NCBI GenBank assembly: GCA_947561715.1
Contig: OX387198.1
Coordinates: forward strand, 12,214,001 to 12,278,000
Length of the DNA stretch: 64,000 bases
Direction of reading: 5' to 3'
DNA from: Ascidia mentula
Taxonomy: Eukaryota; Chordata; Ascidiacea; Phlebobranchia; Ascidiidae
Below are positions 6,355 through 60,987 of the stretch, one piece after another (the first letter of the stretch is position 1; each line of letters begins with the position of its first letter). The position numbers were made by a program, and so were the translations under genes. The notes under the pieces were generated by a model. That model saw only the letters and a program-made list of their open reading frames with translations, ran no database searches and was not told the DNA's origin.

Positions 6355-9300
6355 TTATGGTTTATAGATGGTTTGGAAGACACGAATAAACTCAATCAGG
6401 GCAGTCCTCAAGCTTTGTGAACTTGTGTATGTAGGTGGATATCTGAAAAAAAAACTTTTTAGTTTAGACTTAATTATGTTTATTTCTTCAATCTCATATA
6501 AGAAGCCCGCGTTGCACTCAGATGTGGATCGCATTTTCTTCGTGTTTGAGGCAAACAGCAGACTTCGTCTGGCCTTAGATGGTAGTATAGTCACTAACGC
6601 TACACTGATGAGACCTAACAGGTAGAAACAATGGCTCAACATGCAGCATAATTAAACATAGTATTGGCTTCATTGCTTTAGCAATAAAGTTGTGCTAATC
6701 TATAACCAAACAACCTACTGATTTCCAGTTTGTGTATTTTTTTCAGATTTTTTCAAGCAAACACATTCTATCACATGCCAATGCACATGACCTCACTTGA
6801 CAGCCTCCACTGTTATACCCAGCGAAAGGCCCTTAGGTAAGAAGATCTCTTGAAACATTTTGTTGATTATTAAATAAATTGCGCCAACTTAAACACGAAA
6901 ATAGGTCGTATTGTTTACTTGGTTTTAACTTGAAACAAAAATATTAGTTTTTAGGAATTGCCTTTGTTTACGAACTGAAAAGCCAACACCAGAAAACAGC
7001 AGTGGCACATTTTTTTACAAAGCCCTAATTTTCATTTAATTAAAATGAATGCCACCTAACTAACAAATAAAGTTATCCAGGTAAGCGTGGTCCCGTGAAA
7101 CAAGAAATTACCACTGACTGTAAATAAAGACAGACAGAAAGAAAGACAAAATATGTGTAAAGAAATTGCACGAATTCCATAAAACGTACAGACCTTAACT
7201 CTAACATTGTCGCCGGTTTGGGTTAAAACGTGCTGTTGAAATTACAAATAATGATTTCTTTTTGTCTGAGGGTCCATTTTATCTTACATTGATGTAGGTT
7301 TTAAATTGAAACAGGTTTTAAACAGTCGTAAAAAAATTCTGAAGCTTATTTTTACACGTTTGTAATGTTTAATATTCCTATAGTATCATTTATGTGAATC
7401 TATTGGCAGTTTTGCAGGGCCTTTGGAACACTTGCACGACAGTAAAAAAATGGAAAAGTAATGGCCATATTTATTCCGCATTATACACCGGTGCTATGTG
7501 AAGAGTCAAAATTCATTGCGCTTTCTTTCTTGAAAAGCAAATTAAATTTTGGCCCAACTATGCGTTACTGTGGGACACAGCTGGTTTAGGTAACAAATTG
7601 TTGGAGACTAAAAACTTATATTTGCAGTAATACCAACCTTGCAGCGAGAATGTAGCAGAAGTATTGATTGCTAAATTGTCCGGAAAGTCGCGTTGAACCT
7701 TGGGTAAACGAACCGGAACTCGTTGCGTCATGTCCACCTCCATCAGCTCCCAAGTTTCCCGATTCCTGAAGTCAGATATTTCTATCATTTTAATTGTTAG
7801 TTATAAAATTATTCCAATAAATAGGAGAGAGGCCATATTCGTCCATAAGAAGGGCAAGGATAGCATTTAACCCCTCTAAACAGACAAAAAAGCACATAGA
7901 AAATAATCTATTTTCAAAACTATAATATTGAACAGCAGGTATCTGCAATATTATATCAAATTAACTCCCCTTCGTTTGTTTGAAAATTATAAAATCATTC
8001 ACCGACGGGTCTGCTCTATGCGGGTATGAAATGAACAACGAGCGTTTCCGCTACAATTTACGAACTAAGTTATTCCAAATAACTTACTGTTAACAATTGC
8101 AACAGCAAAGCTAAATAAAACGTGATCTAACATAGCGGTAACATGCAGCATTAACAGCGTTCATAGGCGAACAGTATAAACAGTGTTCTTTACTTAGGCT
8201 AGAGTGCAATGACCCAACGGTTCAGATTTGTCCAGCGGGCCGCAGTTTGCCCGTGTCTGTTGTGTACTCGATTGGTCTTGGAATTTTTATATACGACCTT
8301 TAAAATTTTTACATATAGCAACATTTGAAAATATTCGTGAAAATTTGCTTTTGAAGGACGATTCTTCAATAGGACTCAAACATTTATACCTCAATAAAAA
8401 AACTTTGTCCACTACGTTTTCGGTTTCTGATCAACATCGCCAAGATAAAGGGATGATCGGTAACCGATGTAACCGTGAACGATCCATCTTCAGCCCTGAA
8501 TAAATACAAGCATTTGGCGAGTAAATAAAGCTTTCATTATTCTCCATACCACCTGTATGTTTCGTTGTAATGTATTGATATTGGTTGATCGCTGTCTTTC
8601 CAAACTCGTAACTGGAAATCACAACACTGTAGTAAGTTGTAAATGCAAAAAGATTCGTTTTATTTGAATTCTCTTTACCATATTTCCGCGATCGTACATA
8701 TCGCCTCCACCGTCATTTATACTGTCATTTCGGTTACCATCGTATTCAAACTGGTAAAAATTTGGAATTGAAGTTTGGAAAGATCGAGTTGCAGCTTTAC
8801 TGAGTGCTCTCACATATCGCTCCAATTCTCTTTTTTCTTAAAAACAAAACGTAAGTCAAGATGCACTGATGAGACTTCCCAGGTCGAAACAGCGGCTCCT
8901 TATGCAGCTCACTTAAAAATACCTTTACGCTTGGAATAGCAATTTATTCTTTTCGCATTTAATTACATCTTCCAGTATTTTCGTGTTTACATGTGAATCA
9001 ATTAGGCTGTAATCCCATAGGCGGAAATCTGTTAACTTGAAATTTTTTTGGCTTAAATTTTTACACGTACCGCCGCAAACGCTCTCTTTCATTTTTCCAG
9101 AAGACGTTGTAGTCTGATTCTTCAAAGTTTCCATGACGTTCCTAAACCTTGCAACTTCACCTAAACAACAGAACATTGGTGGTCGCATAATGACGAGCGT
9201 TTCCTTGAAGCTTGGTTGTTTATCTATCACTGACGTCACACTGTTAGTGATGCGCTTCCGTATCTCGTGAGATGATCTAAACCAGGGGTTCTTAAACTAA

Positions 9301-12300
9301 TAGGGCGCTCTCTAGGGGGCGCGGAAGGTGGAGCAAAAGTTTTGCAAAACCCGTCTAGCGACCAATCTATGATCTATTTAGTTTTTTGCGTACCCAAACC
9401 TTATGAAAATTTGAGCAAAGATTTAGCTGTTTGTCCGCAAAACAAACTACGGGGTAACTGTTGATGCGATGTTTGTCATTGGGATGACGAAAGTAGTTTT
9501 AACTTACTGGTTAGTGGTTTTGTATTTGTGAGGTGCAGCCTACATGCGATGTTCATCGCAATTCACTAAACCACGCATTAAACACCTGGATTAAGAAACA
9601 ACACTCATTTCTTATGTTCTCTCGTTGGTGAGTGATATTACAAATAAATAAAAACCTCTTTTTGAATTAGATTCCTTTGAGGGTTGGAAGGGGGTGCTAG
9701 ATTTAATAAATAATCTCAGGGGGCGCGACTAAAAAAGTGAAAGAACCACGCACTGATCTAATCTAATCTAATGTGGATGGGGTAGCGATAAATTTGGGCA
9801 TGGAAATTTCTTACCTGTAACATAACTTTGCAGGGCTTGCATATCAGCGATGGTGCCATTTCTATAGTTTTCTAAGTTATCTGAATAAACAGGAAGTTTT
9901 GTGAGTAGAGTTAATCGTTTGTAAGTTTGGATTACAACGAAGTGAACATAATGTGATTTTCTGGGACAAAAACGTTTCAAAATGTTTTTGCAGCCGTTTG
10001 CATGCAGTGTTACCCCCTGAAAAAGTCAGAACATTACCCTTAATAAGTGAATATTAACTATACGTCTCAACGAATTCCTTTACACATTTTGCCCTACCTA
10101 ATGATTGAATAAAACGTTAAAAGTAATATTTTTACCCTGTACCGAGGTTACGCTTCCCTGGATAGCTCTCATGCTTTGGTTGCTTCCATCCCGATGTATC
10201 TCCAGTTGACCTGAACGTAGGCTATGTATTTTTCACATTGCAAGATGTTTAATTTGTTACATTTTAAGTATATAATGCTTTTGTGCTTCAATATCAACAA
10301 TGTTAGTATCTCTCAAGGGTTGTCAAAATAATCTCGTTCAATTATTCAACTTTAGATCCTTCGCAAATGCTGCGCTGGTGAAGATTTATTAAGGCCACTT
10401 AAAGGAAAATATTTCTTTATAATCCACAATTTCTAAGATATTCAACTGTGTTTTCAGGCTCTTGCTATACTGTTGCTCCAGGTTTAGTTTAATGTAATGT
10501 GCTGTTTTGATTATAAAAGTATGACTTTACGCAGATTTTACACAATCAAATAAGTTATGTTAAATCCATACCTGAATACTGCATTTTAACTTTAATAATA
10601 AACATGGCCCATTAATTCAACTTAGAATATTCAAGCATTGTTTAAATTTTAGGCAAAATCCAAGTATAATGACACATAACGAAGAATGTCTCCCATGTCA
10701 CCAAAAGCATAGAAAGTAAAAATTAGGGTGTTGTCGAAATTTAATTTTGTTGGCGAAATTTAATTCAAGTTAATCGAATATTTGCATTTACCCCGTGTGA
10801 TTCACATTAGGACAAAACATAATATAATATTTTGCACATGTTTCAAGTAAATACGGTCCTTACTTTGTATCAATGCTACACTTCTCTGAATTCCTTGAAT
10901 TACAACTGTGGTTTCATTTCCACGAATTTCCATTTGACCTGAAAACAACATAGTCGGCATTTCCTCATCACCATTTTAATTTTGCAGACCTAGTGTAGCA
11001 CAATTGTTTTTTTATCAGGATAAAGGACTAGTGGTACCACAGGTTGAGAAACACTGCCCTATGTGCTTTAATTGAGAATATTCCAATCTTTTGAACAGCT
11101 TTCAGAAAACAAAGATCCTTACTTTGTATCGATGTTAAACTTCCCTTTATGCCTTTGATCACAGCAGTAGACTCATTTCTATAAGTTTCCATATGGCCTA
11201 AACACAACATAGTAATCATTTTTGTAAATTTTTAACACCTTTTCACTATCTTTGTAATCCTATGATCCTTAATTTTTTGCGCAAATAAAACATATTAGTT
11301 ATATCACTTCTCAACGCTTGGATTTGTGAAGATGTTGTCATTTGTTTCCGTAACGCGTTAATGTACTGATATGTAGATTTTTGCTGATCTAAACAACAAG
11401 TTTGGTATGTTTATGTTTCGAACGATGATGGCACAGTGATTAGTTATAACATAGTACCTTTTGTAGCAATAGTCCAAGAAATATAGTAATCTTGGACTAT
11501 TAAACGGGGAACGTTTTTAACGGTTAGTGTTCAAGCGGGGTTTTATCAGACAGGAAATGTTTGTATTCCTATTTTATTGCTCTGAAATCTGGTTGAAAGT
11601 TTAGATTGATACATGGCCAATAATACGTTGTTGCTAAAGGAAGAATAAGTTTAAAGTAAAACGAAGTTCGTTCACATGCAAAACGCAGAAATGGAATCGC
11701 CAACTGCAAAGTAACATTTTTGGCGATCTCCGTTGTGGCATTTTTGTCGTTAGGTTTACTAGCATCAAAGTCATGTAGAATTAGGCATACAAATTCACAA
11801 ATAATAATCAAAATGGTCATTACCTTGTATTGCGGACATATTCATCCGAATTTCCTGCATGTTCTGAGTAGTTTCATTTCGATACATTTGCATTTCGCCT
11901 AGACAAACATTGGCATAAATAACTTTTGTAACAAACCAAATAACGAATCAATTATGAAGTTGTATTTGAATAAGACGCTTTTTAAATCATTTAATCGTTG
12001 CGTTTACTGAAACTAAGAAACTGACGATGCCCACAGGGCGAAATATATATTCCAAACAACAGCCAGACTGACCCTGTTGTCAAAAGCTATTGCTTTGTGT
12101 GCATATAGTGCCATTACGGAAGTTACATAGCGATTGCTAGGCCAACATTTGCTGCCTGTGGTTTATATCTAAATGTTTTAATATTTGAAGTAATTACAAT
12201 GGAGTTTGTTCAATCCTGTTCGTTAATATTATGTGCAGTTAAAACTTACGAAGGACATTTTCACTTTTTGCGGATTGAATTGTTGAAGTTGTGGACATAC

Positions 12301-15300
12301 GTTTCTGCAACTCTTGTATGTAGTGATGTGTAGCATTTTGACGACCTAAATTCCAAGTTTATTGTGTTAAGTTTTCTCCATTGACATGTTCATGTTATGA
12401 TAATTAGTTGCACATATTTATTTTTTCTGATTTGAAACTCAAATCAGAAACAACAGTCATAGAAAGGATGAGCATGTGAGCGACAATTAAGAACAAACCG
12501 TAATACAATATTTTGCACAACATTTAGATAACAAAGGTCCTTACCCTGTATTGATGTTAAACGTCTCTGCATTCCTTGCACACAACAAAGTTATCAAACA
12601 TTTTTGTGACTTTTTAACAACTTTCTACTGTTTATTTATTCCCATGATTCTTTGTGGTTTATAGGTGAAATTAATGGATATTATTACACTGTTACTACAG
12701 GAAGGAAAAAGTGTTTGTTTTCTTCTAGTTTCATTACAACAGCGTTCCTTAAGTTACAAAATGCAGTAATGGAATCGTCAAACTGCAAAGCAACATTTTT
12801 TGCACACGTCCGTTATGGAAGTTTTTTTCAAGAGGTTTATTGCCATCACATCCCACAGGACTAAATCATTTAAATTTACAAGTTTTAATTAAAATGGTAC
12901 TAACCTTGTAATGCAGATGCATATATCCGAATTTCTTGCATGTTCTGAGTAGTTTCATTTCGATACAATTGCACTTCGCCTTAACACACATGGCATAAAT
13001 AACTTTTGCAACAAACCAAATAATGATTCAATTATGAAGCGGTTAAGATATTTTGTAATTTTACGAATGCACTTTTTGTTTAAGTTGTCAATGCTGTGAG
13101 GATTTAAATGCTTTGCCACACAATCAGAAGTTACTCACCAATCACAAAATTCTGCAATGCTTGAATTTGTGTAGTTGTGGTCATCTGTTGAATTTCACGA
13201 TATGAAGTATTCTGAAAACTCTCCATCTTTCCTAAAGGGCAAGTATAAAATATTTTTTACTGCCACATCATTGTGGTTCAATTGTTTCCATAAAACTTCT
13301 TTTCCTTTTTTGCGCATTCCCTGACATATTTACAACATGGCAAATGTTTGATTTGTAGTTTGTTAAACATCGGCATGTGCGTTTGTTCTTCCTTTCTGAG
13401 CGATAAGGTCATGCTTTGCAAGGAGTGTGACAGACGTGGAGGGTTATGTGATAATCAAATGCTGGCAACGAGGTTATTTGTTAATTGTCGGAAAAAAATA
13501 AGTAAGTGCTTTTTTGTGGTAGAGAGTCGCCTGGTTCATCACTATGAATGCTCCGTACGAATTTGCTCACTTTAACACCAATACAAAGATGAAGTTGTCT
13601 TGGCATAATAATCTTTGATGTATGTTTTACCAATTTTAATTTATTTACTGAAAATACCTATTTACATTATAAGTTCACATGCTCTGAAGGTTTTCCAGTT
13701 TTCCAGTAACATTAGGCAGATAAAATTTTGGTGAATTTAGGCATTCAGATATAAGCTGATTAACGTCTTATGGCGCCCGGGCATCCTTGCGAATAGGGAT
13801 CTTTTGTGCAAGCACGTTTTACTTCCTGATTCATGAAATTTATATGGGACAGAACTGTTGCATAGTTAAGGCAGTCGTGCCAACGTCTGTACAGCAATCG
13901 CGACGCGGATATCTGGTTATACATCTGCTGTGGTTTGAAACAATTTCATGGATAACAAACAATCGTCACAAACATTGCTCTCAACATGAAACCGTTAAAA
14001 AACTAGCCTTTTTTACGACAAGCATTATTTTTTTATTTTAAATATAAACCATATCATATTGCTGTACACGAAAATTGTGAATGTCTGCCTTCGTTAGGTA
14101 ACCCATACCTTGCATTAAACTTAGATTTTCTTTAACTTCTTGCAACTTCTGAGTAGATATGGTTTGATGTATTTTCAATTCACCTAAACATAACGTGATG
14201 TGTTTTATTGCTTTGAAAAGTCAAGGAAATACTAAATGGAATCGTCAAACTGCAAAGTAACATTTTTGGCGATCTCCGTTGTGGAATTTTTGTCGTTAGG
14301 TTTAATAGCATCAAAGTCATGCAGAATTAGGCATACAAATTCACAAATAATAATTGAAATGGTCATTACCTTGTATTGCGGACATATTTATCCGAATTTC
14401 CTGCATGTTCTGAGTAGTTTCATTTCGATACAATTGCATTTCGCCTAGACAAACATTCGCATAAATAACTTTTGTAACAAACCAAATAACGAATCAATTA
14501 TGAAGTTGTATTTGAATAAGACGCTTTTTAAATCATTTAATCGTTGCGTTTACTGAAACTAAGGAACTGACGATGCCCACATGGCGAAATATATATTCCA
14601 AACAACAGCCAGACTGACCCTGTTGTCAAAAGCTATTGCTTTGTGTGCATATAGTGCCATTACGGAAGTTACATAGCGATTGCTAGGCCAACATTTGCTG
14701 CCTGTGGTTTATATCTAAATGTTTTAATATTTGAAGTAATTACAATGGAGTTTGTTCAATCCTGTTCGTTAATATTATGTGCAGTTAAAACTTACGAAGG
14801 ACATTTTCACTTTTTGCGGATTGAATTGTTGAAGTTGTGGACATATGTTTCTGCAACTCTTGTAGGTAGTGATGTGTAGCATTTTGCTGACCTAAATTCC
14901 AAGTTTATTATGGTAATATTTCTCCATTGACATGTTCATGTTATGATAATTAGTTGCACATATTTATTTTTTCTGATTTGAAACTCAAATCAGAAACAAC
15001 AGTCATAGAAAGGATGAGCATGTGAGCGACAATTAAGAACAAACCGTAATACAATATTTTGCACAACATTTAGATAACAAAGGTCCTTACCCTGTATTGA
15101 TGTTAAACGTCTCTGCATTCCTTGCATCAAAGTAGTACTTTTATTTTCGAGAATTTCCATTTGGCCTGAACACAACAAAGTTATCAAACATTTTTGTGAC
15201 TTTTTAACAACTTTCTACTGTTTATTTATTCCCATGATTCTTTGTGGTTTATAGGTAAAATTAATGGATATTATTACACTGTTACTGCAGGAAGGAAAAA

Positions 15301-18300
15301 GTGTTTGTTTTCTTCTAGTTTCATTACAACAGCGTTCCTTAAGTTACAAAATGCAGTAATGGAATCGTCAAACTGCAAAGCAACATTTTTTGCACACGTC
15401 CGTTATGGAAGTTTTTTTCAAGAGGTTTATTGCCATCACATCCCACAGGACTAAACCATTTAAATTTACAAGTTTTAATTAAAATGGTACTAACTTTGTA
15501 ATGCAGATGCATATATCCGAATTTCTTGCATGTTCTGAGTAGTTTCATTTCGATACAATTGCATTTCGCCTTGACACACATGGCATAAATAACTTTTGCA
15601 ACAAACCAAATAATGATTCAATTGTGAAGCGGTTAAGATACTTTGTAATTTTACGAATGCACTTTTTGTTTAAGTTGTCAATGCTGTGAGGATTTAAATG
15701 CTTTGCCACACAATCAGAAGTTACTCACCAATCACAAAATTCTGCAATGCTTGAATTTGTGTAGTTGTGGCCATCTGTTGAATTTCACGATATGAAGTAT
15801 TCTGAAAACTCTCCATCTTTCCTAAAGGGCAAGTATAAAATATTTTTTACTGCCACATTATTGTGGTTCAATTGTTTCCATAAAACTTCTTTTCCTTTTT
15901 TGCGCATTCCCTGACATATTTACAACATGGCAAATGTTTGATTTGTAGTTTGTTAAACATCGGCAAGTGCGTTTGTTCTTCCTTTCTGAGCGATAAGGTC
16001 AATGCTTTTCAAGGAGTGTGACAGACGTGGGGGATTATGTGATAATCAAATGCTGGTAACGAGGGTATTTGTTAATTGTCCGAAAAAATTAGGTAAGTGC
16101 TTTTTTGTGGTAGAGAGTCGCCTGGTGCATTATTATGAAAGCTCCGTACGAATTTGCTCACTTTAACACCAATACAAAGATGAAGTTGTCTTGGCATAAT
16201 AATCTTTGATGTATGTTTTACCAATTTTAATTTATTCACTGAAAATACCTATTTACATGATAAGTTCACATGCTCTGAAAGTTTTACAGTTTTCCAGTAA
16301 CATTAGGCAGATAAAATTTTGGTGAATTTAGGCATTCAGATATAAGCTGATTAACGTCTTATGGCGCCCGGGCATCCTTGCGAATTAGGGATCTTTTGTG
16401 CAAGCACGTTTTGCTTCCTGATTCATGAAATTTATATGGGACAGAACTGTTGCATAGTTAAGGCAGTCGAGCCAACGTCTGGACAGCAATCGCGACGCGG
16501 ATATCTGGTTATATATCTGCTGTGGTTTGAAACAATTTCATGGATAACAAACAATCGTTACAAACATTGCTCTTAACATAAAACCGTTAAAAACTAGCCT
16601 TTTTTACGAAAAGAAATATATTTTTATATGTGCAAAAAAAGCCATAATATTGCAAAGCTGCAAACAGGGTGTGTACACGCACTGTTTCGACCTGTAAGGT
16701 CTCATCAGTGCAGCTGTTGTGTGGCACTGTGCTAGCTTTCACACTAGCAGGCACACTAGTCTCCACTTTGTGGTACCTTTCGGTCAACGTCGATCTGCAG
16801 GGTACCCTATACTAGGTACCGAACAACAGAGACGACGAACCACTGTGGAGCGCACTATGGCCAAACGGAACTGCTTGGTAACCGATAGTGCAAAAGGCAT
16901 AAATAAATGATTCGGTTACCAAGCAGTTCCGTTTGGCCATAGTGCGCTCCACAGTGGTTCGTCGTCTCTGTTGTTCGGTACCTAGTGTAGGGTACCCTGC
17001 AGATCGACGTTGACCGAAATGTACCACAAAGTGGAGACTAGTGTGCCTGTTAGTGTGAAAGCTAGCACAGTGCCACACAACAGCTGCACTGATGAGACCT
17101 TACAGGTCGAAACAGTGCGTGTACACACCCTGTCTGCAGCTTTGAAATATTTTTTTATTTTAAATATAAACCATATCATATTGCTGTACACGAAAATTGT
17201 GAATTTCTGCCTTCGTTAGGTTACCCATACCTTGCATTAAACTTAGATTTTCTTTAACTTCTTGCAACTTCTGAGTAGATATATTTTGATGTATTTTCAA
17301 TTCATCTGAACATAACGTGATGTGTTTTATTGCTTTGAAAAGTCAAGGAAATACTAAATGGAATCGTCAAACTGAAAAGTAACATTTTTGGCGATCCCCG
17401 TTGTGGAATTTTTGTCGTTAGGTTTACTAGCATCAAAGTCATGCAGAATTAGGCATACAAATTCACAAATAATAATCAAAATGGTCATTACCTTGTATTG
17501 CGGACATATTTATCCGAATTTCCTGCATGTTCTGAGTAGTTTCATTTCGATACATTTGCATTTCGCCTAGACAAACATTGGCATAAATAACTTTTGTAAC
17601 AAACCAAATAACGAATCAATTATGAAGTTGTATTTGAATAAGACGCTTTTTAAAACATTTAATCGTTGCGTTTACTGAAACTAAGGAACTGACGATGCCC
17701 ACAGGGCGAAATATATATTCCAAACAACAGCCAGACTGACCCTGTTGTCAAAAGTTAGTGCGTTGTGTGCATAATGCCATCACGGAAGTTACATAGCGAT
17801 TGCCAGGCCAACATTTGCTGCCTGTGGTTTAGATCTAAATTTTTTAATATTTGTAATTACAATGCAGTTTGTTAAAAACCTGTTCGTTAATATTATGTGC
17901 AGTTAAAACTTACCAAGGACATTTTCACTTTTCGTGGATTGAATTGTTGAAGTTGTGGACATATGTTTCTGCAACGCTTGTATGTAGTGATGTGTAGCAT
18001 TTTGCTTACCTAAATCCCAAGTGTATTTTATTAAGTTTTCTCCATGGAAATGTCCATATTAAGACAGTTGCACATAATATTTTTTCCTGTTTTTAAAGTT
18101 AAATCAGGAACAATAGTGAACACAAGAAGTTGTTACGTCCATTGAAATACCCCTCCTGGTTGCAGCAACAACAAAATATTACCTTTTATTTCATTTGCGA
18201 TGGAGTTTGTTTGGTCAATACTGTCATGATTATCACGAATTAAACTTCTAATCACAGAAAGGCGACCCTCGTTAGTCAATGTGAAGTTCTTGTGGTCGAA

Positions 18301-46347: not shown

Positions 46348-46780
46348 GTAAGAATAATATCAACGTTTATTTGCACATGATTCCGAAAAAATTAATCGTT
46401 GTCATTTAGCATTGAAATTATCACGGGATTTTGAGACGTGAGACGTGTTCTTTGTTAAGAAATAGTACGCCCACGTCTTTTTGCGTGTGTGTAATGTTGT
46501 CCAGACCATTGCTGATGTGATTGACGATCTTTTCTTCAAAGGTAGTTTGCGGCTTGAATATCAATGTTCTGCAGGGACAGGCTTGAAGGTTGCACCGCTT
46601 GAATGAACCTGACAACGACTACCATAGTCGCATGGGAAAGCTCAAATCTAAAGCCTTGGGAACTCCATTTAAAAAAAAAACATGGATAACGATATTCTAA
46701 AACTAGCGAAAGACTGAAGAAAACATGTTTGGTCCCAGTGTTATCCGTTGCACATCCATACAATCCACATACTATGGTAG

Positions 46781-47248
46781 TGTTACGCTTCTTAAAATAA
46801 ACGCTTTCCTTGGTTCTCAGGACGCTGCATTCACGGCTAACCACAAGCCTGTTCCAGCACAACCGTTTAGATAAAATCTTGTTCATAAAACCATAAAAAT
46901 TGCACAGCCGAAACACAATCTCCCCAAAAACAGTCTCCCCAACGATTTTTCTTAGCGTCTCGTGTTCGTCCGGTTTTTCTTTTCTCTCGCCAGTCATTGG
47001 CCCAACCGTGTCACGTGAGAAGGGAGCTAGCGCTACGATATCAAATCAACGTGCGGTGACTGGTGCGTTCGAGACACTTAAATAATAAATTCCAAAATAT
47101 AAATCAATACAAAACATTTAAGTGAACAGGTGGAAGGTGAAATAACAAAAGGTGAAAAAGAACGTGGCGTAAAAGAGTACGTGATTTAACGAAAGCGTGA
47201 AACTTGGAAATGAAACGCAAACAAGTGGGCAAATTCTTTTGCGCTACA
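46781..47248 (-). repeat. Gypsy 3' LTR
   Basis: Left copy of the 468-bp terminal repeat, next to the polypurine tract and therefore the 3' LTR of the minus-strand element. Confidence 0.92.
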
Positions 47249-50200
47249 CACTCCCCCCTCTATGTCGAGGCACTCCCGTGCAGACTTATGGGGAATAGCG
47301 CTGAGTGGGACGGCGATTTACGCGAAGGCGACTGGCAATTCCGTTGTCATCGCGAGAGTTCGGTGCCTGCGCATTTTCTTCGTTTTCGGTGATATTGGTC
47401 CAGGTCACCACTTTTGTCGTGGGGTCTCCCGTAGGTTACAATGTCCGGACTTCCTCTTCCACGGTTGGTCGCCCCTCCGTCTTGTCCGCCCCTTCACCTT
47501 GAATTTGTTTGAGGCGATTATAATGGACGACTTTTCGGTGTCCTTCTTCGTCCTCGATCTCATACGTCACGGCTGACTTGATGTCCACCACTTTGTACGG
47601 GCCTTTGAACGGAAGGTGAAATTTCCTCGCCATCCCTGGCTTCACCGCGGGGTCTGTTAAGAGAACAAAATCACCCACATTCAGCGGTTTGCCCCTCTTA
47701 TGTCGGTCGTACTGCGACGCCATGCGCCGTCTTTGTTTCCGCAACGTTTCACGGGCCACCTCTTCAGCTAACTGGAGCCTAGCGCGTAGCCCTTCCAGTG
47801 GTTCCGGGAATGGATCGCGCTGGGCGGGAGCACCGAATAAATCTGCTGGGAGTCGTAGAGCGTGGCCATTTAACAAATAATGTGGTGACACACCTGTACT
47901 TTCATGGACACTCGCATTATAGGCGGCGACCACCGCCGACAGCGCCTCATCCCAGCACCGTTCATCGCGCTGTACGTAATTCCGTATCATGGAGAGTATT
48001 GTTCGGTTGTTGCGTTCGCACGCACCGTTTCCTTGAGGATGATACGCGGTCGTCCGGGTCTTTCGGCAGCCCATCAACCGTGCTAGCTCTTTAAATAAAA
48101 TAGATTCAAAGTTTGCACCTTGATCGGAATGGATTACGTCCGGGACGCCGTGTACCGTAAACCAACGATGAAACATTGTCCCGGCTACGTCTTCTGCCCT
48201 TTACGTCCTGAGTGGCCATGCGCGCACGTATTTAGTGAATATGTCGCATGCAACCAATACGTATTGATTACCACTGGAGGTCGCCGGAAGTGGCCCCATT
48301 ATGTCCACCTCGACCCGCTCCATTGGTTGCATCTCCCCGGAAGGAACCAACGGAGCGCGGGGCCTTGCTGTAAACTTCTTACTTCTTTGGCAGTGGCGAC
48401 AGGAACGGACATATGCCTCAACATCGGTCCTCCAACCGGGCCAGAAGTGTCTTTCTTCGATCTTCGAACAGGTTTTTGCCATCCCGAGATTGCCACCGCC
48501 AAGTGGTGCGTCGTGCAAAACGGACATAATCGTTTCTCTGGTGGTCTGTGGAGTGATAAGGCGGTACACACACGCCCCCGGTTGATGTAAGGAGTCACTC
48601 GTTTGATACAACAAGTTGTTTTGAACGATTAACCGCCCGAATTGCCCCCAAAGGTGTTTGGTCATCGTCGAGGCAGACCTAACAGTTCGGTAAGGTGGTC
48701 TCTTGCCAAGGTTTAACCACCTAAAAGCCGGGGAAATTTCGGGGTCGTCGTGTTGGGCTTTACTTATTTCCTCGTATGGCAGTCCAATGGAGCGACGCAA
48801 GTCTAAGGAATAAACTTCTTCTGTACCGTTGCGACGACTGTTTGTGCCGTAGGAAGTGTTGACCGGAAATGGCATCGCTTCTTCCTCTTCATTGGTCAAG
48901 CGGCTTAGTGCATCGGCGTTGCCGTGTTTTTTTCCCGGGCGATGAATCAGTGTGAAGTCGTACTCTGCGAGGCGTTCAAACCAACGCGCACACTGGCCAT
49001 ACATCTCCCGCGACTTCCACAACCAGCGGAGTGACGAATGATCAGTCCGCAGGAGAAAGTGCCTGCCAAGCAAATAACACCTATACAATTTAACGGCGTA
49101 TACTACAGCTAACAATTCTTTTCGCGTAGTGGAATAATTGCGCTCAGCTTTCGATAGCGATTTGCTGCCATAGGCGATCACATGTTCTTTGCCATCTACT
49201 ACCTGGTACAACACACATCCCACCGCGTTATTGGAAGCGTCGGTATCTAATACAAAAGTCGCTGAAAAGTCCGGGTGCTGTAGAATAGGTGCTTGTGTAA
49301 GGCGTCGCCTTAGTTCGTCGAATGCATCTTGTTGCTCTTCCCCCCATTTGAATGTTCGACCCTTTTCTGTGAGCTTGTGTAACGGACCAGCCACCCGAGC
49401 ATAATCTTTGATAAATCTGCGATAATAAGAAGTAAGGCCAACGAATTGTCGAACACTCCTCGGGGTAGGCCAGGAACTTACAGCATCTATTTTGCCGGGA
49501 TCGCAAGACACTCCTTTATCGGAAATCACATGCCCCAAAAAACTTACTTGCGATTGAAACAAATTGCATTTGGTCGGTTTCAACGTGAGACCCGCCTCTA
49601 CTAACCGATCGAGTACTCTACTTAAACGATCCATGTGCTCTTCAAAGGTAGTGGCATACACTATAATATCGTCGAGGTATGCCAAAGCGCCGCGCCATTC
49701 CATCCCGTTTAGAACTAGCCGCATTCATCTCTGAAAACTAGCCTCGGCATTGCACAGTCCCATGGGCATAACATTAAACTCGTAAAGTCCCATGTGCGAA
49801 GAAAAAGCGGTTTTCTCTCGGCAGTCATTCCGCATTGGAATCTGCCAATAGCCTGACTTAAGATCAAGAGTTGAGAAAAACTTCGCATGAGCCATTTCGT
49901 CTAAACTATCGTCCACCCTTGGTATCGGGTAGCTACACTTTTTCGTAAGAATGTTTATTTGCCGGTAATCCACACAAAACCTCGTCTCACCAGACTTTTT
50001 CCGAACCAGAACGACGGGACTTGACCACGGCGATTGCGAAGGGCGCACCAAACCCTGTTGCTCCATCTCCCCGACAATTTCCTCCACTTTCCTTTTGTTT
50101 CCTGGGGCCATCCGTCGTGGCGGTTGTCGGACCGGTGCATGATCACCTGTATCTATCGCGTGTTCGGCCAAGTGGGTCCGACCGAGATCCCCTGCCTCTG

Positions 50201-52137
50201 TGCAAAACGCGGCTTGTTTCCTAGAAATTAATTCTTCGACACGTTTTTTCTGAGCGGACGTCAGTCCCTCATTAATTGAAACGGAATCTATAATCCTACC
50301 CGCTCCTGAGCGGCCGGCCTTTGGGGTTCGTTGCGCTGTTGTCGTGATCGAAGCAATATATTCACTGTTGATGCAGCCTCTGTCTTCGCACTCACAACCT
50401 GGCGGTGGAAAGGATTCCACTGCAACACAGTTGTCGTCAGACGAACATGTGACGTTGCCGGAGGTCAGTATCGGAGTCAGGCGAGCAACATGCGAATCTG
50501 CAAGCAACCTCACCGGGTCGTCGGACAAATTTGCTAAAAATACCGGAACAGTTGCTTGCGAAGTTATAGTTACATACGTTCCGCCGAATAAACTATTTCG
50601 GAGTGTGAAGTCAAGGTTTTTCTCAACAAGAACTTGCATCGCACTAGGGACATTTTCTGGGGGATTCCTTATGAATGAACCAACAACGCATACCTCTGAA
50701 AACGGTGGGATCGTCACATCTTCTTTTAGACGTACATCTGTGCGTTTACAGTGGAAGGGGGAAGAAAGTAGAGCCGCGGAACCCGATCCAACGTAGAACA
50801 ACATTTTTTTGTAACAGAGTTGGCAACCGTTGCTCTGAATGAAGTCCAGGCCTAAAATGCATTCTTCTTGAATGTAGCGTGTCACGCACATTCTTTGCGA
50901 TAAGCGTAACCCGCAAATCCTTACGTCAACATCGACAGCGCCGTCCATCAAAATAACTTCTCCGGAAGCGTTGACATACTCTGTTTCCAACGGTAAGGGT
51001 TGTAACACCCCATTAGGCGTAGCTTTAAGTGACTTATATACGCGACGGTTTAATACGCTTATCGTAGCGCCGGTGTCTACTAAAGCGCACACGATCCGAT
51101 CTCCCAACAATATGTTCAGGTAGCGCTTTTGTTTGTTCGTCTTGGCTATTCCTTGCACGGTAACCCGCGACTTACTTGGTGTCGGCCTTTGCTGGGCGGT
51201 GTTCACCACCTGCGATGGGGATTGTTGACTTGATGGTCTAAAAGGTGTAGATTTAATCGTCCTATCGCCGACGCGTGGTCGACCACAATTTCTTGCCACA
51301 TGGCCACGTACCCCACAGTTGTAGCAAGCGCTTGTAGACTTACTTGGGCGCAACCTTGGTGGTCCGGGTCGCTGGAGAACGTCGAAATCACGGCGCATGG
51401 CATCGAGCTCGTTACGAAAGCTATCAATAGATCGCTGCACATTCGAATTAAGCTCGACCAAAGTGTTTTTGAGTTCGACCAACTCAGGATTTCGGGTTGA
51501 AGTTATCGATGTAACGGGAAGAGAGCCGTGTGACACATCGGACTCGACGACCATTTTAGCACAAACACTGAAATCCCGCTGTGGACACTTTTGTCTAACT
51601 GAGTCCACTAGTTGGCGGTCCTTGAGACCCCGCAATAAAGCGAGAAGCATCACCTCATTTTTAATGGCGGCGTCGGCTGCCCTCGGGTACGCACGGGCGG
51701 CTAAAGCTTCTATGGCATACACGAAAGTTCTACCGTCTTCTTGTGGCCCTTGGATTCGGTTGACCAACTGGCTTCTTAGCGCGCATTGGCCAGTGGCGTT
51801 TACTCCGACTGCTTTGGCTTTAGTAACTATCTCTTCAAATTGCATTTCGTACAGATTATCGGCCCCGTTTTGAATATCCCATATGAAGTCTTTGTCAACA
51901 TTTGTTAAGAAAAGGTGCTTCTTAACCTCTTCGGTAGCCTTTATGCTGGCGCAATAAGAATTAAAAACTTGTAAAAATGAGTTAAAATTGTCTCCGTTTC
52001 TAAAATGCGGGGGAGTCAAGCCGATGTTAAAAGCCATCTTCCGGATCAAGAAAAAATATGACGAACCTTGGTCCTTTCTCGTGTGACAGGAACTCTTCTT
52101 CTGTGGTTGCAGCGTCCTGGCGTGCTCGCCAATTTCG

Positions 52138-52605
52138 TGTTACGCTTCTTAAAATAAACGCTTTCCTTGGTTCTCAGGACGCTGCATTCACGGCTAACCA
52201 CAAGCCTGTTCCAGCACAACCGTTTAGATAAAATCTTGTTCATAAAACCATAAAAATTGCACAGCCGAAACACAATCTCCCAAAAAACAGTCTCCCCAAC
52301 GATTTTTCTTAGCGTCTCGTGTTCGTCCGGTTTTTCTTTTCTCTCGCCAGTCATTGGCCCAACCGTGTCACGTGAGAAGGGAGCTAGCGCTACGATATCA
52401 AATCAACGTGCGGTGTCTGGTGCGTTCGAGACACTTAAATAATAAATACAAAAATATAAATCAATACAAAACATTTAAATGAACAGGCGGAAGGTGAAAT
52501 AACAAAAGGTGAAAAAGAACGTGGCGTAAAAGAATACGTGATTTAACGAAAGCGTGAAACTTGGAAATGAAACGCAAACAAGTGGGCAAATTCTTTTGCG
52601 CTACA
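52138..52605 (-). repeat. Gypsy 5' LTR
   Basis: Right copy of the 468-bp terminal repeat. The coding region starts just inside it on the minus strand. Confidence 0.92.
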
Positions 52606-53616: not shown

Positions 53617-56600
53617 TTATGGTTTATAGATGGTTTGGAAGACACGAATAAAATCAATCAGAGCAGATCTCAAGCTTTGTGTACTTATATATGCAGATGG
53701 ATATCTGAAAAAAGAAATTAGTTTAGACTATGTTTATTTCTTCAATCTCATATAAGAAGCCGTTGCACTCAGATGTGGATCGCATTTTTTGCGTGATTGA
53801 GGCAAACAGCATTATTAAAAGACTTTAAAAGGCGAAATGGTAGTATAGTCACTAACGCTATACTAATTGGACCTAACAGGTCGAAACAATGGCTCAACAT
53901 GCAGCATAATTAAACATAATATTGGCTTCATTTTTTCAGCAATAAAGTTGTGCTAATCTATAACCAAACATCCTACTGATTTCCAGTTTGTGTATTTTTT
54001 TCAGATTTTTTTAAGCAAACACATTCTATCACATGCCAATGCACATGACCTCACTTGACAGCCTCCACTGCTATACCCAGCGAAAGGCCCTTGGAAGATC
54101 TCGAAACATTTTGTTGATTTATTAAATAAATTGCACCAACTTTAAACACGAAAATCGGCCGTATTGTTTACTTGGTTTTAACTTGAAACAAAAATATTAG
54201 TTTTTAGGAATTGTCTTTGTTTACAAACTGAAAAACCAACACCAGAAAACAGCAGTGGCACATTTTCTTTTACAAAGTCCTAATTTTAATTCAATTAAAA
54301 TGAATGCCACCTAACTAACAAAGAAAGTTATCCAGGTGAGCGTGGTCCCGTGAAACAAGAAATTACCACTAACTGTAAATAAAGACAGACAGAAAGAAAG
54401 ACAAAATAAGAGTAAAGAAATTGCACGAATTCCATAAAACGTACAGGCCTTAACTTTAACATTGTCGCCGTTTTGGGTTAAAACGTGCTGTTGAAATTAC
54501 AAATAATGATTTCTTTTTGTCTGAGGGTCCATTTTATCTTACATTGATATAGGTTTTAAATTGAAACAGGTTTAAACAGTCGTAAAAAAAATTCTGAAGC
54601 TTATTTTTACACGTTTGTAATGTTTAATATCCTTATAGTATCATTCATATGAATCAATTGGCACTGAGTTTTTCAGGGCCTTTGGAATACTTGCACGACA
54701 GTAAAAAAAATGGAAAAGTAATGGTCATATTTATGCTGCATTTGTTGTACACCGGTGCTATGTGAAGAGTCAAAGTTTATTGCGCTTTTCTTCTTGAGAA
54801 GCAAATTAAATTTTGGCCCAACAATGCGTTACGGTCGGACACAGCTGGTTTAGGCAAAAGTTGTTGCAGACTGAAAACTTGTATTTGCAGTAATACCAAC
54901 CTTGCAGCGAGAATGTAGCAGAAGTATTGATTGCTGAATTGACCGGAAAGTCGCGCAGTGTTGTTCGTGTAACTTGTACCTGGTTTATTGTCTTTAAAGT
55001 GAAGAGTGCTGCTTCCAGTTGAATCAAAAATCTGCAACAAACAAAAGCAAGAACATTGGATACATATTAAAATTTAACCAATGTGCGGTGTTACAATATT
55101 TCCTGTTACTTCAACCTTTTTATTCAATTTCTTACTTCAGTGCTTGACATGCTTAGAAATATCTGTATGATGGATGGGTCGGGTGTTCCATACACTTGAT
55201 AAGTCTTGTATGATGAGTAGATTGAACCTTGTGTGAACGAACCGGAATCCGGTGCGTAATATCCGCCTCCATCAGCTCCCAAGTCTCCAGATTCCTGAAG
55301 TCAGATATTACTATCAATTTTTTTGAATAAAAAAGCCAAAGCTTAGATGCTGTTAATCCTTTTAGGTCAATTTTATTTGTTAGTTATAAAGTTATTCCAA
55401 TAAACAGTAGAGAGGCCATAGGCGTCCATTAGAAAGCAAGGAGAGCATTCAACCCCTTTAAAGAGACAAAAAAAGCACATAGAAAATAATCTATCTTCAA
55501 AACTAAAATATTGAACAGCAGGTATCTGCAGTATTATATCAAATTATCTCCCCTTCCTTTGTTTGAAAATTATCAAATGATTCACCGACGGGTCTGCTCT
55601 TTATGGGTATGAAATGAACAACGAGCGTTTCCGCTACAGTTTATGAACTAAGTTATTCAAAATAACTTACTGTTAACAATTGCAACAGCAAAGCAAAATA
55701 AAACGTGATCTGACGTAGCGGTAACATGCAGCATTAACAGCGTTCATAGGCGAACAGTATAAAGAGTGTTCTTTACTTAGGCTAGAGTGAAATAACCCAA
55801 TGGCTCAGATTTGTCCAGCGGGCCGCAGTTTGCCCGTGTCTGTTGTGTACTCGATTGGTTTTGGAATTTTTATATATGACCTTAGAAATTTTAACATATA
55901 GCACCATTTGAAAATATTCGTAAAATTTTGCTTTTGAAGGACGATTCTTTAATAGGACTCAAACATTTATACCTCAATAAAAAAACTTTGTCCACTACGT
56001 TTTCGGTTTCTGATCAACATCGCCAAGATAAACGGATGATCGGTAACCGATGTAACCGTGAACGATCCATCTTCAGCCCTGAATAAATACAAGCATTTGG
56101 CGAGTAAATACAGCTTTCATTATCCTTCCAAACTACCTGTATGTTTCGTTGTAATGTATTGATATTGGTTGATCGCTGTCTTTCCAAACTCGTAACTGGT
56201 AAATCACAAAACTGTAGTAAGTTGTAAATGCAAAAAGATTCGTTTCATTTGAATTCTCTTTACCATATTTCCGCGATCGTATATATCGTGTCCACCGTCA
56301 TTTATACTGTCATTTCGGTTACCATCGTATTTAAACTGGTAAAAATTTGGAATTGAAGTTTGGAAAGATCGAGTTGCAGCTTTACTGAGTGCTCTCACAT
56401 ATCGCTCCAATTCTCTTTTTTCTTAAAAACAAAACGTAAGTCAAGATGCACTGATGAGACTTCCCATGTCGAAAAAGTGGCTCCTCATGCAGCTCACTTA
56501 AAAATACCTTTACGCTTGGAACAGCAATTAATTCTATTCGCATTCAATTACATCTTCCAGTATTTTCGTGTTTACATGTGAATCAATTAGGCTGTAATCC

Positions 56601-59600
56601 CATAGGCGGAAATCTGTTAACTTGAAATTTTTTTTGGCTTAAATTTTTACACGTACCGCCGCAAACGCTCTCTTTCATTTTTCCAGAAGACGTTGTAGTC
56701 TGATTCTTCAAAGTTTGCATGACGTTCCTAAACCTTGCAACTTCACCTAAACAACAGAACATTGGTGGTCGCATAATGACGAGCGTTTCCTTGAAGCTTG
56801 GTTGTTTATCTATCACTGACGTCACACTGTTAGTGATGCGCTTCCGTATCTCGTGAGATGATCTAAACCAGGGGTTCTTAAACTAATAGGGCGCTCTCTA
56901 GGGGGCGCGGAAGGTGGAGCAAAGTTTTGCAAAACCCGTCTAGCGACCAATCTATGATCTATTTAGTTTTTTGTGTACCCAAACCTTATGAAAATTTGAG
57001 CAAAGATTTAGCTGTTTGTCCGCAAAACAAACTACGGGGTAACTGTTGATGCGATGTTTGTCATTGGGATGACGAAAGTAGTTTTAACTTACTGGCTAGT
57101 GGTTTTGTATTTGTGAGGTGCAGCCTACATGCGATGTTCATCGCAATTCACTAAACCACGCATTAAACACCTGGATTAAGAAACAACACTCATTTCTTAT
57201 GTTCTCTCGTTGGTGAGTGATATTACAAATAAATACAAACCTCTTTTTGAATTAGATTCCTTTGAGGGTTGGAAGGGAGTGCTAGATTTAATAAATAATC
57301 TCAGGGGGCGCGACTAAAAAATAGTTTTCTAAGTTATCTGAACAAACAGGAAGTTTAGTGAGTAAAGTTAATCGTTTGTAAGTTTGGATTACAACGAAGT
57401 GAACATAATGTGATTTTCTGAAACAAAAACGTTTCAAAAGGTTTTTGTAGCCGTTTGCATGCAGTGTTACCTCCTGCAGAAGTCAGAACATTACCCTTAA
57501 TAAGTGAATATTAACTATACGTCTCAACGAATTCCTTTACACATTTTGCCCTACCTAATGATTGAATAAAACGTTAAAAGTAATATTTTTACCCTGTACC
57601 GAGGTTACGCTTCCCTGGATAGCTCTCATGCTTTGGTTGCTTCCATCCCGATGTATCTCCAGTTGACCTGAACGTAGGCTATGTATTTTTCACATTGCAA
57701 GATGTTTAATTTGTTACATTTTAAGTATATAATGCTTTTGTGCTTCAATATCAACAACGTTAGTATCTCTCAAGGGTTGTCAAAATAATCTCGTTCAATT
57801 ATTCAACTTTAGATCCTTCGCAAATGCTGTGCTGGTGAAGATTTATTAAGGCCACTTAAAGGAAATATATTTCTTTATAATCCACAATTTCTAAGATATT
57901 CAACTGTGTTTTCAGGCTCTTGCTATACTGTTGCTCCAGGTTTAGTTTAATGTAATGTGCTGTTTTGATTATAAAAGTATGACTTTACACAGATTTTGCA
58001 CAATCAAATAATTTATGTTAAATCCATACCTAAATACTGCATTTTAACTTTAATAATAAACATGGCCCATTAATTCTACTTAGAATATTCAAGCATTGTT
58101 TAAATTTTAGGCAAAATCCAAGTATAATGACACATAACGAAGAATGTCTCCCATGTCACCAAAAGCATAGAAAGTAAAAATTAGGGTGTTGTCGAAATTT
58201 AATTTTGTTGGCGAAATTTAATTCAAGTTAATCGAATATTTGCATTTACCCCGTGTGCTTCACATTAGGACAAAACATAATATAATATTTTGCACATGTT
58301 TCAAGTAAATACGGTCCTTACTTTGTATCAATGCTACACTTCTCTGAATTCCTTGAATTACAACTGTGGTTTCATTTCCACGAATTTCCATTTGACCTGA
58401 AAACAACATAGTCGGCATTTCCTCATCACCATTTTAATTTTGCAGACCTAGTGTAGCACAATTTTTTTTTTATCAGGATAAAGGACTAGTGGTACCACAG
58501 GTTGAGAAACACTGCCCTATGTGCTTTAATTGAGAATATTCCAATCTTTTGAACAGCTTTCAGAAAACAAAGGTTCTTACTTTGTATCGATGTTAAACTT
58601 CCCTTTATGCCTTTAATCACAGCAGTAGACTCATTTCTATAAGTTTCCATATGGCCTAAACACAACATAGCAATACTTTTTGTAACTTTTTAACACCTTT
58701 TCACTATCTTTGTAATCCTATGATCCTTAATTTTTTGCGCAAATAAAACATATCAGTTATATCACTTCTCAACGCTTGGATTTGTGAAGGTGTTGTCATT
58801 TGTTTCCGTAACGCGTTAATGTAGTGATATGTAGATTTTTGCTGATCTAAACAACAAGTTTGGTATGTTTATGTTTCGAACGATGATGGCACAGTGATTA
58901 GTTATAACATAGTACCTTTTGTAGCAATAGTCCAAGAAATATAGCAATCTTGGACTATTAAACGGGGAACGTTTTAAACGGTTAGTGTTCAAGCGGGGTT
59001 TAATGACACAGGAAATGTTTGTATTCCTATTTTATTACTCTGAAATCTGGTTGAAAGTTTAGATTGATACATGGTCAATAATACGTTGTTGCTAAAGGAA
59101 GAATAAGTTTAAAGTAAAACGAAGTTCGTTCACATGCAAAACGCATAAATGGAATCGTCCAACTGCAAAGTAACATTTTTGGCGATCTCCGTTGTGGAAT
59201 TTTTGTCGTTAGGTTTACTAGCATCAAAGTCATGCAGAATTAGGCATACAAATTCACAAATAATAATCAAAATGGTCATTACCTTGTATTGCGGACATAT
59301 TTATCCGAATTTCTTGCATGTTCTGAGTAGTTTCATTTCGATGTATTTGCATTTCGCCTAGACAAACATTGGCATAAATAACTTTTGTAACAAACCAAAT
59401 GACGAATCAACTATGAAGTTGTATTTGAATAAGACGCTTTTTAAAACATTTAATCGTTGCGTTTACTGAAACTAAGGAACTGACGATGCCCACAGGGCGA
59501 AATATATATTCCAAACAACAGCCGGACTGACCCTGTTGTCAAAAGTTAGTGCGTTGTGTGCATAATGCCATTACGGAAGTTACACTTGCTATTGCCAGGC

Positions 59601-60987
59601 CAACATTTGCTGCCTGTGGTTTAGATCTAAATTTTTTAATATTTGAAGTAATTACAATGGAGTTTGTTCAAACCTGTTGGTTAATATTATGTGCAGTTAA
59701 AACTTACCAAGGAAATTTTCACTTTTCGTGAATTGAATTGTTGAAGTTGTGGACATATGTTTCTGCAACGCTTGTATGTAGTGATGTGTAGCATTTTGCT
59801 GACCTAAATCCCAAGTGTATTGTGTTAAGTTTTCTCCATGGAAATGTCCATATTAAGACAGTTGCACATAATAATTTTTCCTGTTTTTAAAGTTAAATCA
59901 GGAACAATAGTGAACACAAGAAGTTGTTACGTCCATTGAAATACCCCTCCTGGTTGCAGCAACAACAAAATATTACCTTTTATTTCATTTGCGATGGAGT
60001 TTGTTTGGTCAATACTGTCATGATTATCACGAATTAAACTTCTAATCACAGAAAGGCGACCCTCGTTAGTCAATGTGAAGTTCTTGCGGTCGAGACGAAT
60101 TTGAAGTATTTCCTGGTATAAATCTTAGTGGAAAGATTAAACTGTGAGTTTGGATGTTTGCGATGTCGGTAGTAAGACATGCATAAAAAATGGTAGTATG
60201 CCATCCATAAGTATTAAAACTAAAAGAAACACGTGTTGTAGACAAACGAACCTTTGAGAAACTCAAAATTTTCTGTAATGATGTCCAGTTTTTTTTCCAA
60301 AATATCTGAAACCATTGACGAAATCGTTTGGGGTCACTAAAGATAATCAAATCAATAACTCTAACCGTTTTGTTCTTTGAGCTGACTGGTAAGTATTATT
60401 TTAGGAGATCCGCGTTCTTTGCAGGGTGGGACGTTAAGTTCTGTGTAAAAATATATGTACTATGTAAAATAATGTATCATATATTTAAACAATACCACTT
60501 ACTTGCTGGGAGGCCACTAAGTTTTGCATCAATCTACAAAAATATGAATGAAACCTTCGGTTTAAGCGCAGGAAATATATGCACTAGTATGCGTTGTATT
60601 CTTATAGTTTTCATTAAAGTCCAACATACATTAAACGCACTATAACGGTATTTTGTTTAATGCATTGATGCTTACCCAAAAGCACGTTACACCAAAACCA
60701 ACCAACATAAAGATGCCAAATAACACCACTGAAACTCCCCCAATCTTTATCGTCTTTTCCATCAAGCGCTCCATATTTCGTAACTGCCCTGAGGTTTCAT
60801 CGCGGGGAATATTGTTTGTCGTTTGGCATGACGAACCAGCAGTGCCACCTAAAACAAACGGAAAAAGTGCCACATTTTAGCAACAAAACTAAACCCAATG
60901 GGCTTCACGAATATTGATCGGTATGTTACCTTGATCAAACGATGTCGTTGCTATTTGGTGTAATAATTCTCCTCTTTCTGTACTCAT
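53617..60987 (-). CDS. Gene F: duplicate of gene A with short stalk and complete head domain (18 exons)
   Basis: Exons, high to low: 60930-60987, 60676-60848, 60503-60533, 60252-60305, 59977-60123, 59708-59803, 59283-59357, 58766-58846, 58581-58655, 58322-58396, 57593-57667, 56657-56746, 56264-56421, 56137-56195, 55973-56078, 55136-55294, 54901-55031, 53617-53704. Total 1731 nt, 576 aa, one frame. Residues 1-56 are cytoplasmic, 57-77 the membrane helix, 78-343 the stalk and 344-576 the head. It lacks the cassette exons of A and one 66-nt exon (remnant near 57321-57340), but has the full 159-nt and 131-nt head exons that are fused in A. All lost exons are phase 1-1, so the frame holds. Most exons align base for base with A, which supports coding status. 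Confidence 0.78.
53859..53908 (+). repeat. Decayed hammerhead-like repeat (copy in gene F)
   Basis: Counterpart of 6601-6650 in the last intron of gene F. Only the stem II/GAAAC half and the ATGCAGC end are recognisable. Confidence 0.45.
56446..56495 (+). repeat. Decayed hammerhead-like repeat (copy in gene F)
   Basis: Duplicate of the relic at 8861. CTGATGAG is kept, but the second half of the core is changed (TCGAAAAA) and stem II is weakened. It was present before the block duplication. Confidence 0.5.
56869..57320. mobile_element. hAT-type MITE, right end deleted (copy in gene F)
   Basis: Same element as 9283-9755, inherited with the block. Its last part is missing because of the deletion that also took half of the adjacent stalk exon. 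Confidence 0.8.
57321..57340 (-). pseudogene. Remnant of a 66-nt stalk exon in gene F
   Basis: The acceptor and first bases of the exon equivalent to 9815-9880 (gene A) remain. A deletion of roughly 0.1 kb removed its 3' part and donor together with the right end of the neighbouring hAT MITE. Confidence 0.7.

Follow-up and report, generated by a model that had tools for sequence, protein, structure and literature searches.

Introduction

In the available sections of the report by Cervera and de la Pena (2020; PMC7229834), metazoan non-LTR retrozymes are many-copy elements with a unit of 150–450 bp that carries a type I hammerhead ribozyme and occurs in direct tandems; their target duplications (TSDs) exceed the 4 bp of plant retrozymes. 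Penelope-like elements (PLEs) are strongly favored there as the movers of retrozymes, on the grounds that both occur together and have hammerheads and tandem copies in common. Its main text contains none of the words inverted, head-to-head, and opposite.

PLEs, according to the part of Arkhipova et al. (2013; PMC3846280) that is available, have head-to-head pLTRs and TSDs of 8–10 bp, and one of the inverted pLTRs may bear a 31-bp tail; self-priming was proposed there for the PLE palindromes. PLE hammerheads are described, in the excerpts available, as minimal variants without helix III or loop–loop contacts. A purified PLE enzyme acts on AT-rich DNA in vitro, cutting and extending its two strands from two adjacent internal start sites, and the interval between these sites is the tail; for the anole PLE, the in vitro work detected neither a difference in start site between the strands nor a requirement for hammerhead cleavage, and the start site is not homologous to the target (Frangieh et al., 2024; PMC11167929).

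We analyzed a stretch of 64,000 nucleotides from chromosome 2 (contig C2) of the ascidian Ascidia mentula (contig OX387198.1, positions 12,214,001–12,278,000; "the window") that contains two hammerheads in an inverted arrangement. In the same assembly, mitochondrial COX1 reads open with the invertebrate and with the ascidian code, the latter giving glycine at positions that look conserved by eye, and its best protein match is from Phallusia (87%). We conclude that they were probably brought in by one insertion of a metazoan retrozyme, taken as non-coding, through two-ended target-primed reverse transcription, with a PLE enzyme acting in trans as the most likely agent.

Results

Anatomy of the window copy

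Two inverted arms (16653–16885 and 16912–17144) lie 26 nt apart in the window with an outward hammerhead at each end, so the palindrome that a first-pass annotation had described at 16653–17144 is present; its limits, however, give way to those of the TSD-bounded insertion (Table 1). The ungapped match between the arms reaches 312 nt at 87% identity; beyond the cleavage sites, the left arm continues for ∼35 nt and the right arm for ∼9 nt.

The same annotation held that a sister cassette lacks the insertion, and the empty site is indeed found: the cassette aligns as 13210–14036 plus 14026–14782 (∼96% identical), its match to the left flank reaching 16627 and that to the right flank beginning at 17148, with an 11-bp overlap, and comparison of one flank with the other lengthens the TSD of the window copy from 11 to 15 bp. 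The insertion was also called recent; this is true relative to the empty sister cassette and only in that relative sense, because the insert is shared, whole or in part, by five duplicated chromosome 2 loci (L014–L017 and L020) and is therefore older than those duplications. The inner junction in the sister loci L014–L016 is identical to that of the window copy; in L020 the left hammerhead is gone, and in L017 the right arm ends short of its cleavage site. Long cassettes are repeated within the window at 91–98% identity (e.g., 9864–12457 with 57321–59911 and 11689–14036 with 14234–16627), and further copies of them are found along chromosome 2 at 12.07–12.28 Mb.

Table 1. Features of the head-to-head insertion and of the sister cassette (window positions).
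Feature	Position	Strand	Basis or remark
Left TSD copy, 15 bp	16613..16627		14/15 identical to the right copy here; 15/15 in sister locus L015
Whole insertion, head-to-head retrozyme pair, 516 bp	16628..17143		TSD boundaries and empty sister cassette
Long tail, ∼35 nt of the next unit past the left cleavage site	16628..16662	-	
Left hammerhead, stem I to stem I, GUU triplet	16656..16715	-	cleavage between 16663 and 16662
Left arm, unit nt 291 back to 51	16663..16903	-	
8 extra nt at the inner junction	16904..16911		L014–L016
Right arm, unit nt 69–291	16912..17134	+	
Right hammerhead, GUC triplet	17082..17141	+	cleavage after 17134
Short tail, ∼9 nt past the right cleavage site	17135..17143	+	
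Right TSD copy	17144..17158		
Sister cassette with empty site (around 14026–14036)	13210..14782	+	

The window holds other mobile or ribozyme-like sequences. A Ty3/gypsy-type LTR element occupies 46780–52605 on the minus strand; its 469-bp flanking repeats are 98.5% identical, it has protease, RT, RNase H, and integrase domains, and its coding stretch consists of three adjacent open frames with two in-frame stops between them. Hammerhead-like motifs of the form CTGATGAGAC..GAAA occur at 6605, 8866, and 56451, with a damaged core near 53860; the motifs stand in duplicated window cassettes, their flanks are older and different, and they are perhaps relics of an older hammerhead family.

A 291-nt family with three forms

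The exact core CTGATGAGACNNNACAGGTCGAAA occurs 762 times in the 195.8-Mb assembly (386 on the plus strand, 376 on the minus strand), with no matches to the reversed-pattern control, so the conserved core does have other genomic copies. We read the anatomy of 58 stretches around core copies (the L-numbered loci) against a 291-bp unit taken from L028 and numbered from the cleavage site. The copies take three forms, that is, single partial units, direct tandems of the 291-bp unit (L026, L028, and L029), and head-to-head pairs; direct and head-to-head forms stand side by side even inside one locus (L026 and L028). The first-pass annotation had set the inverted pairing apart from the direct repeats of typical retrozymes and had proposed a genome search for direct-repeat forms and PLEs. 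Both were found, the PLEs as GIY-YIG matches that we presume to be PLEs, and the two forms in L026 and L028 do away with the proposed distinction. As judged from their sequences, the elements fit a metazoan non-LTR retrozyme family, and each window arm is a truncated copy of its unit.

L028 contains seven full units on one side and four on the other; with one of these 11 units as the reference, 10 are identical and one is 99.3% identical to it. Single-arm copies of about one 291-nt turn (L027, L041, and L049) look as if copying had halted on reaching its own start. The insert itself as a PLE was ruled out: 516 bp, made of pieces of a 291-nt unit, is too short for an RT plus GIY-YIG open reading frame.

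A diverged subfamily (L056, L057, L058, L060, L064, L067, and L071) has TGCAGCTCTC right past the cleavage site; where its ends are visible, they also lie ∼7 or 38 nt past that site. Open frames of 146–171 aa with similar peptides run antisense across the retrozyme in L033 (1562–1999), L034 (2335–2847), and L069 (1247–1711); they are probably due to chance.

Opposite-strand neighbors are divergent

Among the first 100 of the 762 cores (all of contig C1 and the start of C2), neighbors within 3 kb are divergent in 10 cases, convergent in none, and on the same strand in 5. Several of the divergent pairs are equally spaced (409 twice, 450–460 three times), so some are probably duplicates and the number of events is about 7. 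In the 18 consecutive listed loci L054–L071, divergent pieces occur in eight: L054 and L055, which have one junction in common, L058, L059, L060, L062, L068, and L070, the last scored by eye from a short inverted piece. Since L054–L071 were selected by their exact core, core conservation is kept out of the evidence. The head-to-head arrangement is a regular product of this retrozyme family.

We made the same count for two protein domains. Among 121 GIY-YIG matches, listed from 150 scored of 382 candidates, neighbors within 8 kb are divergent in 17 cases, convergent in none, and on the same strand in 7. Among the best 150 of 1254 RVT_1 candidates, the corresponding numbers are 0, 1, and 1, a weak control with very few pairs.

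Outer ends occur in two windows

Perfect end repeats of at least 10 bp flank 27 of 54 clusters, as compared with 8 of 432 swapped-flank pairs; for this count, L014, L016, L017, L020, L022, L023, and L055 were left out as duplicates and clusters shorter than 60 nt were skipped. Although the 27 repeats range from 10 to 15 bp, 23 of them are 11–14 bp; at least one, the self-complementary repeat of L058, may be an internal match.

Most outer ends fall beyond the hammerhead cleavage site, that is, within the next unit, and they are found mainly in two windows past this site: 4–19 nt (short, S) and 35–47 nt (long, L) when the end is placed where similarity to the unit stops, or about 5–12 and 31–46 nt when it is bounded by the TSD. 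In 20 of 28 divergent events, one end is S and the other is L (L on the left in 12, S on the left in 8); there are no S/S events, and all 20 events tabulated with both ends in the windows are mixed. If the ends were chosen independently at even odds, 20 mixed events of 20 would be expected with a probability of about 1e-6, a value that must be read with caution, as we set the windows once the end positions were known. The other eight events comprise five with one end outside both windows (L019, L034, L021–L023, L042, and L050), L060 and L068, which are unscorable for tails, and L054/L055, which have the same inner junction with short/long ends in L054 and long/long ends in L055. One of the measurement passes that contributed to the tail table left out L057, L062, L063, L070, and L071; for L070, the left end (37) is a visual reading. 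The target ends match the RNA beside the start point over 0–7 nt; these short matches are at most suggestive.

These ends bear on more conventional origins. Inverted arms with a target duplication look superficially like a MITE-type DNA transposon with terminal inverted repeats; however, the two termini of a pair differ in the 20 mixed events, arm lengths vary freely, and direct tandems and single arms occur in the same family. A chance inversion would also produce convergent pairs. As to an assembly error, L014–L016 share the same junction, and the assembly was built from HiFi long reads according to the available part of its description (PMC11109543). We therefore regard a MITE, chance inversion, palindromic amplification, or assembly error as extremely improbable.

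The two arms end independently

Inner ends were measured at 20 loci (a set without L019, L021–L023, L042, L043, L047, L050, L051, L060, L068, and L070), with L014 and L016 dropped from the offset count. The inner ends of the two arms lie 15–206 unit nt apart, and more than 30 nt apart in 15 of the 18 events; at the junctions, the arms either overlap by 0–6 nt or are separated by 1–25 extra nt. Thus, the two arms of a pair end at unrelated positions in the unit, independently of each other.

A palindrome could also arise by fold-back, that is, by a cDNA that snaps back or an antisense RNA that primes itself; this is the self-priming put forward for head-to-head PLEs in the available text of PMC3846280, and the window copy, taken alone, would agree with it, since its arms are offset by only 18 unit nt around a 26-nt loop. 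However, the offsets of more than 30 and up to 206 unit nt in 15 of the 18 events are not a fold-back outcome, and each outer end has its own tail, in two different windows. We consider fold-back improbable, and because the inner ends are independent we favor two separate cDNAs.

Arms at the same locus are more alike than permuted partners (mean identity 0.979 vs 0.958 in 18 events; none of 5000 permutations reaches the observed value), and this is also true of the 12 young events (0.989 vs 0.980; again none of 5000 as high). At single loci, arms from elsewhere are often as close as an arm's own partner (mean rank fraction 0.24), and gene conversion is another route to similar arms within a locus. 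The arms continue across the cleavage site, so they were copied from either a circle or a multimer that had not been cut; the near-identical units of L028 and the single arms of about one lap favor a circle, without proving it.

Folding of the hammerheads and of the palindrome

Both window hammerheads have a 7-bp stem I (AGCUGCA/UGCAGCU), a stem II (GACC/GGUC), CUGAUGA, and GAAA, with a GUC cleavage triplet on the plus strand and GUU on the minus strand, in agreement with the complete core that the first-pass annotation had assigned to each arm. The cores are type I and intact as judged from the sequence and from the fold of a trimmed 67-nt motif, for which the minimum-energy structure has the hammerhead topology (−19.8 kcal/mol; −17.6 kcal/mol for the active fold drawn by hand). 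In an 85-nt context, a rival GCACUG/CAGUGC stem that covers the core is favored over the hammerhead (z −0.68), and the same stem is favored in the predicted fold of the 291-nt unit. No Rfam family matches either window hammerhead site at the gathering score; below it, RAGATH-1-hammerhead and Hammerhead_3 match at both sites, along with other sub-threshold families, several of them produced by the hairpin.

The plus transcript of the insert is predicted to form a single long hairpin (−494.6 kcal/mol, z −49.6) in which the hammerhead strand pairs with the opposite arm; the minus strand has the same arms. It had been proposed that a transcript would contain one active ribozyme and could also form a 233-bp hairpin; in the model these are competing folds of one strand, and the hairpin buries the hammerhead. 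The window palindrome would thus be an insertion footprint whose transcript should bury its ribozyme, and we do not expect it to be a good ribozyme source.

This prediction also bears on whether the locus is selected, with the palindrome maintained because transcription of either strand gives an RNA that cleaves itself or forms a double-stranded hairpin. Both window cores are intact; however, the predicted hairpin buries the ribozyme, junctions and arm lengths vary by locus as those of insertion by-products would, and L020 and L017 have each lost or failed to reach one of the two functional ends. A selected dual-ribozyme locus is very unlikely. On the evidence of ends, junctions, and loci we have rejected it, as well as fold-back, a MITE, and chance inversion or assembly error.

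Discussion

A model for the insertion

Around the duplications, end positions, orientation bias, and junctions that we observe, we infer the following order of steps, with a circle and an enzyme, for two-ended target priming. The retrozyme RNA would self-cleave and then close into circles. A PLE endonuclease/RT would make a staggered cut in the target that leaves the duplication of ∼12 bp seen at the loci, and both target 3′ ends would prime cDNA inside the RNA, at the positions where the outer ends are found; one cDNA would start 4–19 nt and the other 35–47 nt past the cleavage site. Each cDNA would pass through the cleavage site, at times for several laps, and stop independently of the other, and the inner cDNA ends would be joined by the short overlaps or patches that are seen in the products. 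The outcome would be two units back to back with their hammerheads outward.

The divergent layout that the retrozymes share with the presumed PLEs (17:0 among the 121 GIY-YIG matches listed) supports a PLE enzyme. Against it, only 1 of 15 GIY-YIG matches on C1 lies within 5 kb of a core (0.48 expected); because the GIY-YIG matches are not near the cores, the retrozyme cannot simply be a terminal repeat belonging to them. Beside the GIY-YIG arrays, no RVT_1 match was found among the best 150 of 1254 RVT_1 candidates.

Some GIY-YIG matches sit in open frames of up to 892 aa, in tandem with a 2870-bp period. At G000:C67:6134028-6146916, five matches (two minus, then three plus) in open frames of 559–892 aa have a period of exactly 2870 bp on each strand; this looks like a tandem array, arranged head to head, of an element that we presume to be a PLE. 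Separately, contigs C15, C21, C49, and C51 contain RVT_1 matches in open frames that are 3977 to 19197 codons long, which is odd for an animal genome.

The two target ends might instead be primed by a LINE. Twin priming by L1 yields divergent pieces whose inner ends overlap briefly where they join, and the retrozyme pairs have both features; LINE-type reverse transcriptases are also abundant in this genome, as judged from the best 150 RVT_1 matches. However, neither poly-A nor a LINE 3′ end is found at the outer ends of the copies examined, the ends lie in two windows inside the RNA, as PLE ends reportedly do, and the best 150 RVT_1 matches are not biased toward divergence (0 vs 1, very few pairs), whereas the GIY-YIG matches are. 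The retrozymes also differ from twin-primed LINE inversions in that they are not limited to 5′-truncated single copies (e.g., the multi-unit arms of L026 and L028). We judge a LINE to be a rather unlikely agent.

Comparison with described elements

With respect to the published descriptions in their available sections, the Ascidia elements resemble metazoan retrozymes in the 291-bp unit, the type I hammerhead, the direct tandems, the 762 exact cores, and TSDs of more than 4 bp; unlike them, many copies are head to head, with one short and one long tail. They resemble PLEs, within the same scope, in the head-to-head layout, the short TSD, and the tail of ∼30 nt on one arm only; starts inside the RNA, tandem units, a hammerhead, and, at the window copy, an AT-rich target are further similarities. 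They are unlike PLEs in that no PLE protein is seen in them, they are a tenth of the size, and their arms stop independently of each other instead of meeting at a palindromic junction. In contrast to the anole PLE, the pairs follow a rule of one start of each kind and show short matches to the target.

Retrozymes, head-to-head PLEs, the one-arm tail, and extension of both strands by a PLE enzyme are already known; what seems to be new is that a retrozyme shows an insertion anatomy of the PLE type, with the rule of one short and one long end. We found no report of head-to-head retrozymes in the openly licensed literature, in so far as its text was available, which is weak evidence of absence.

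Implications

In this minimal element with its fixed unit, the junctions, target repeats, and ends can be seen at many loci, where they match the insertion anatomy reported for PLEs. The finding bears on the origin of head-to-head PLE structures: arm ends that are independent fit two cDNAs and not fold-back. The head-to-head joining probably reflects copying of the RNA into the two target strands at once; if so, retrozymes would be tied to Penelope-type enzymes.

We tentatively suggest, as a possibility that falls short of being the probable one, that one coupled reaction copies the retrozyme circle from the two 3′ ends of a staggered target cut, through a PLE-type dimer in which each polymerase uses a different one of two start sites ∼26 nt apart. 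If so, the rule of one short and one long end would be an in vivo record of an asymmetric complex, and PLE enzymes would mobilize hammerhead circular RNAs in trans.
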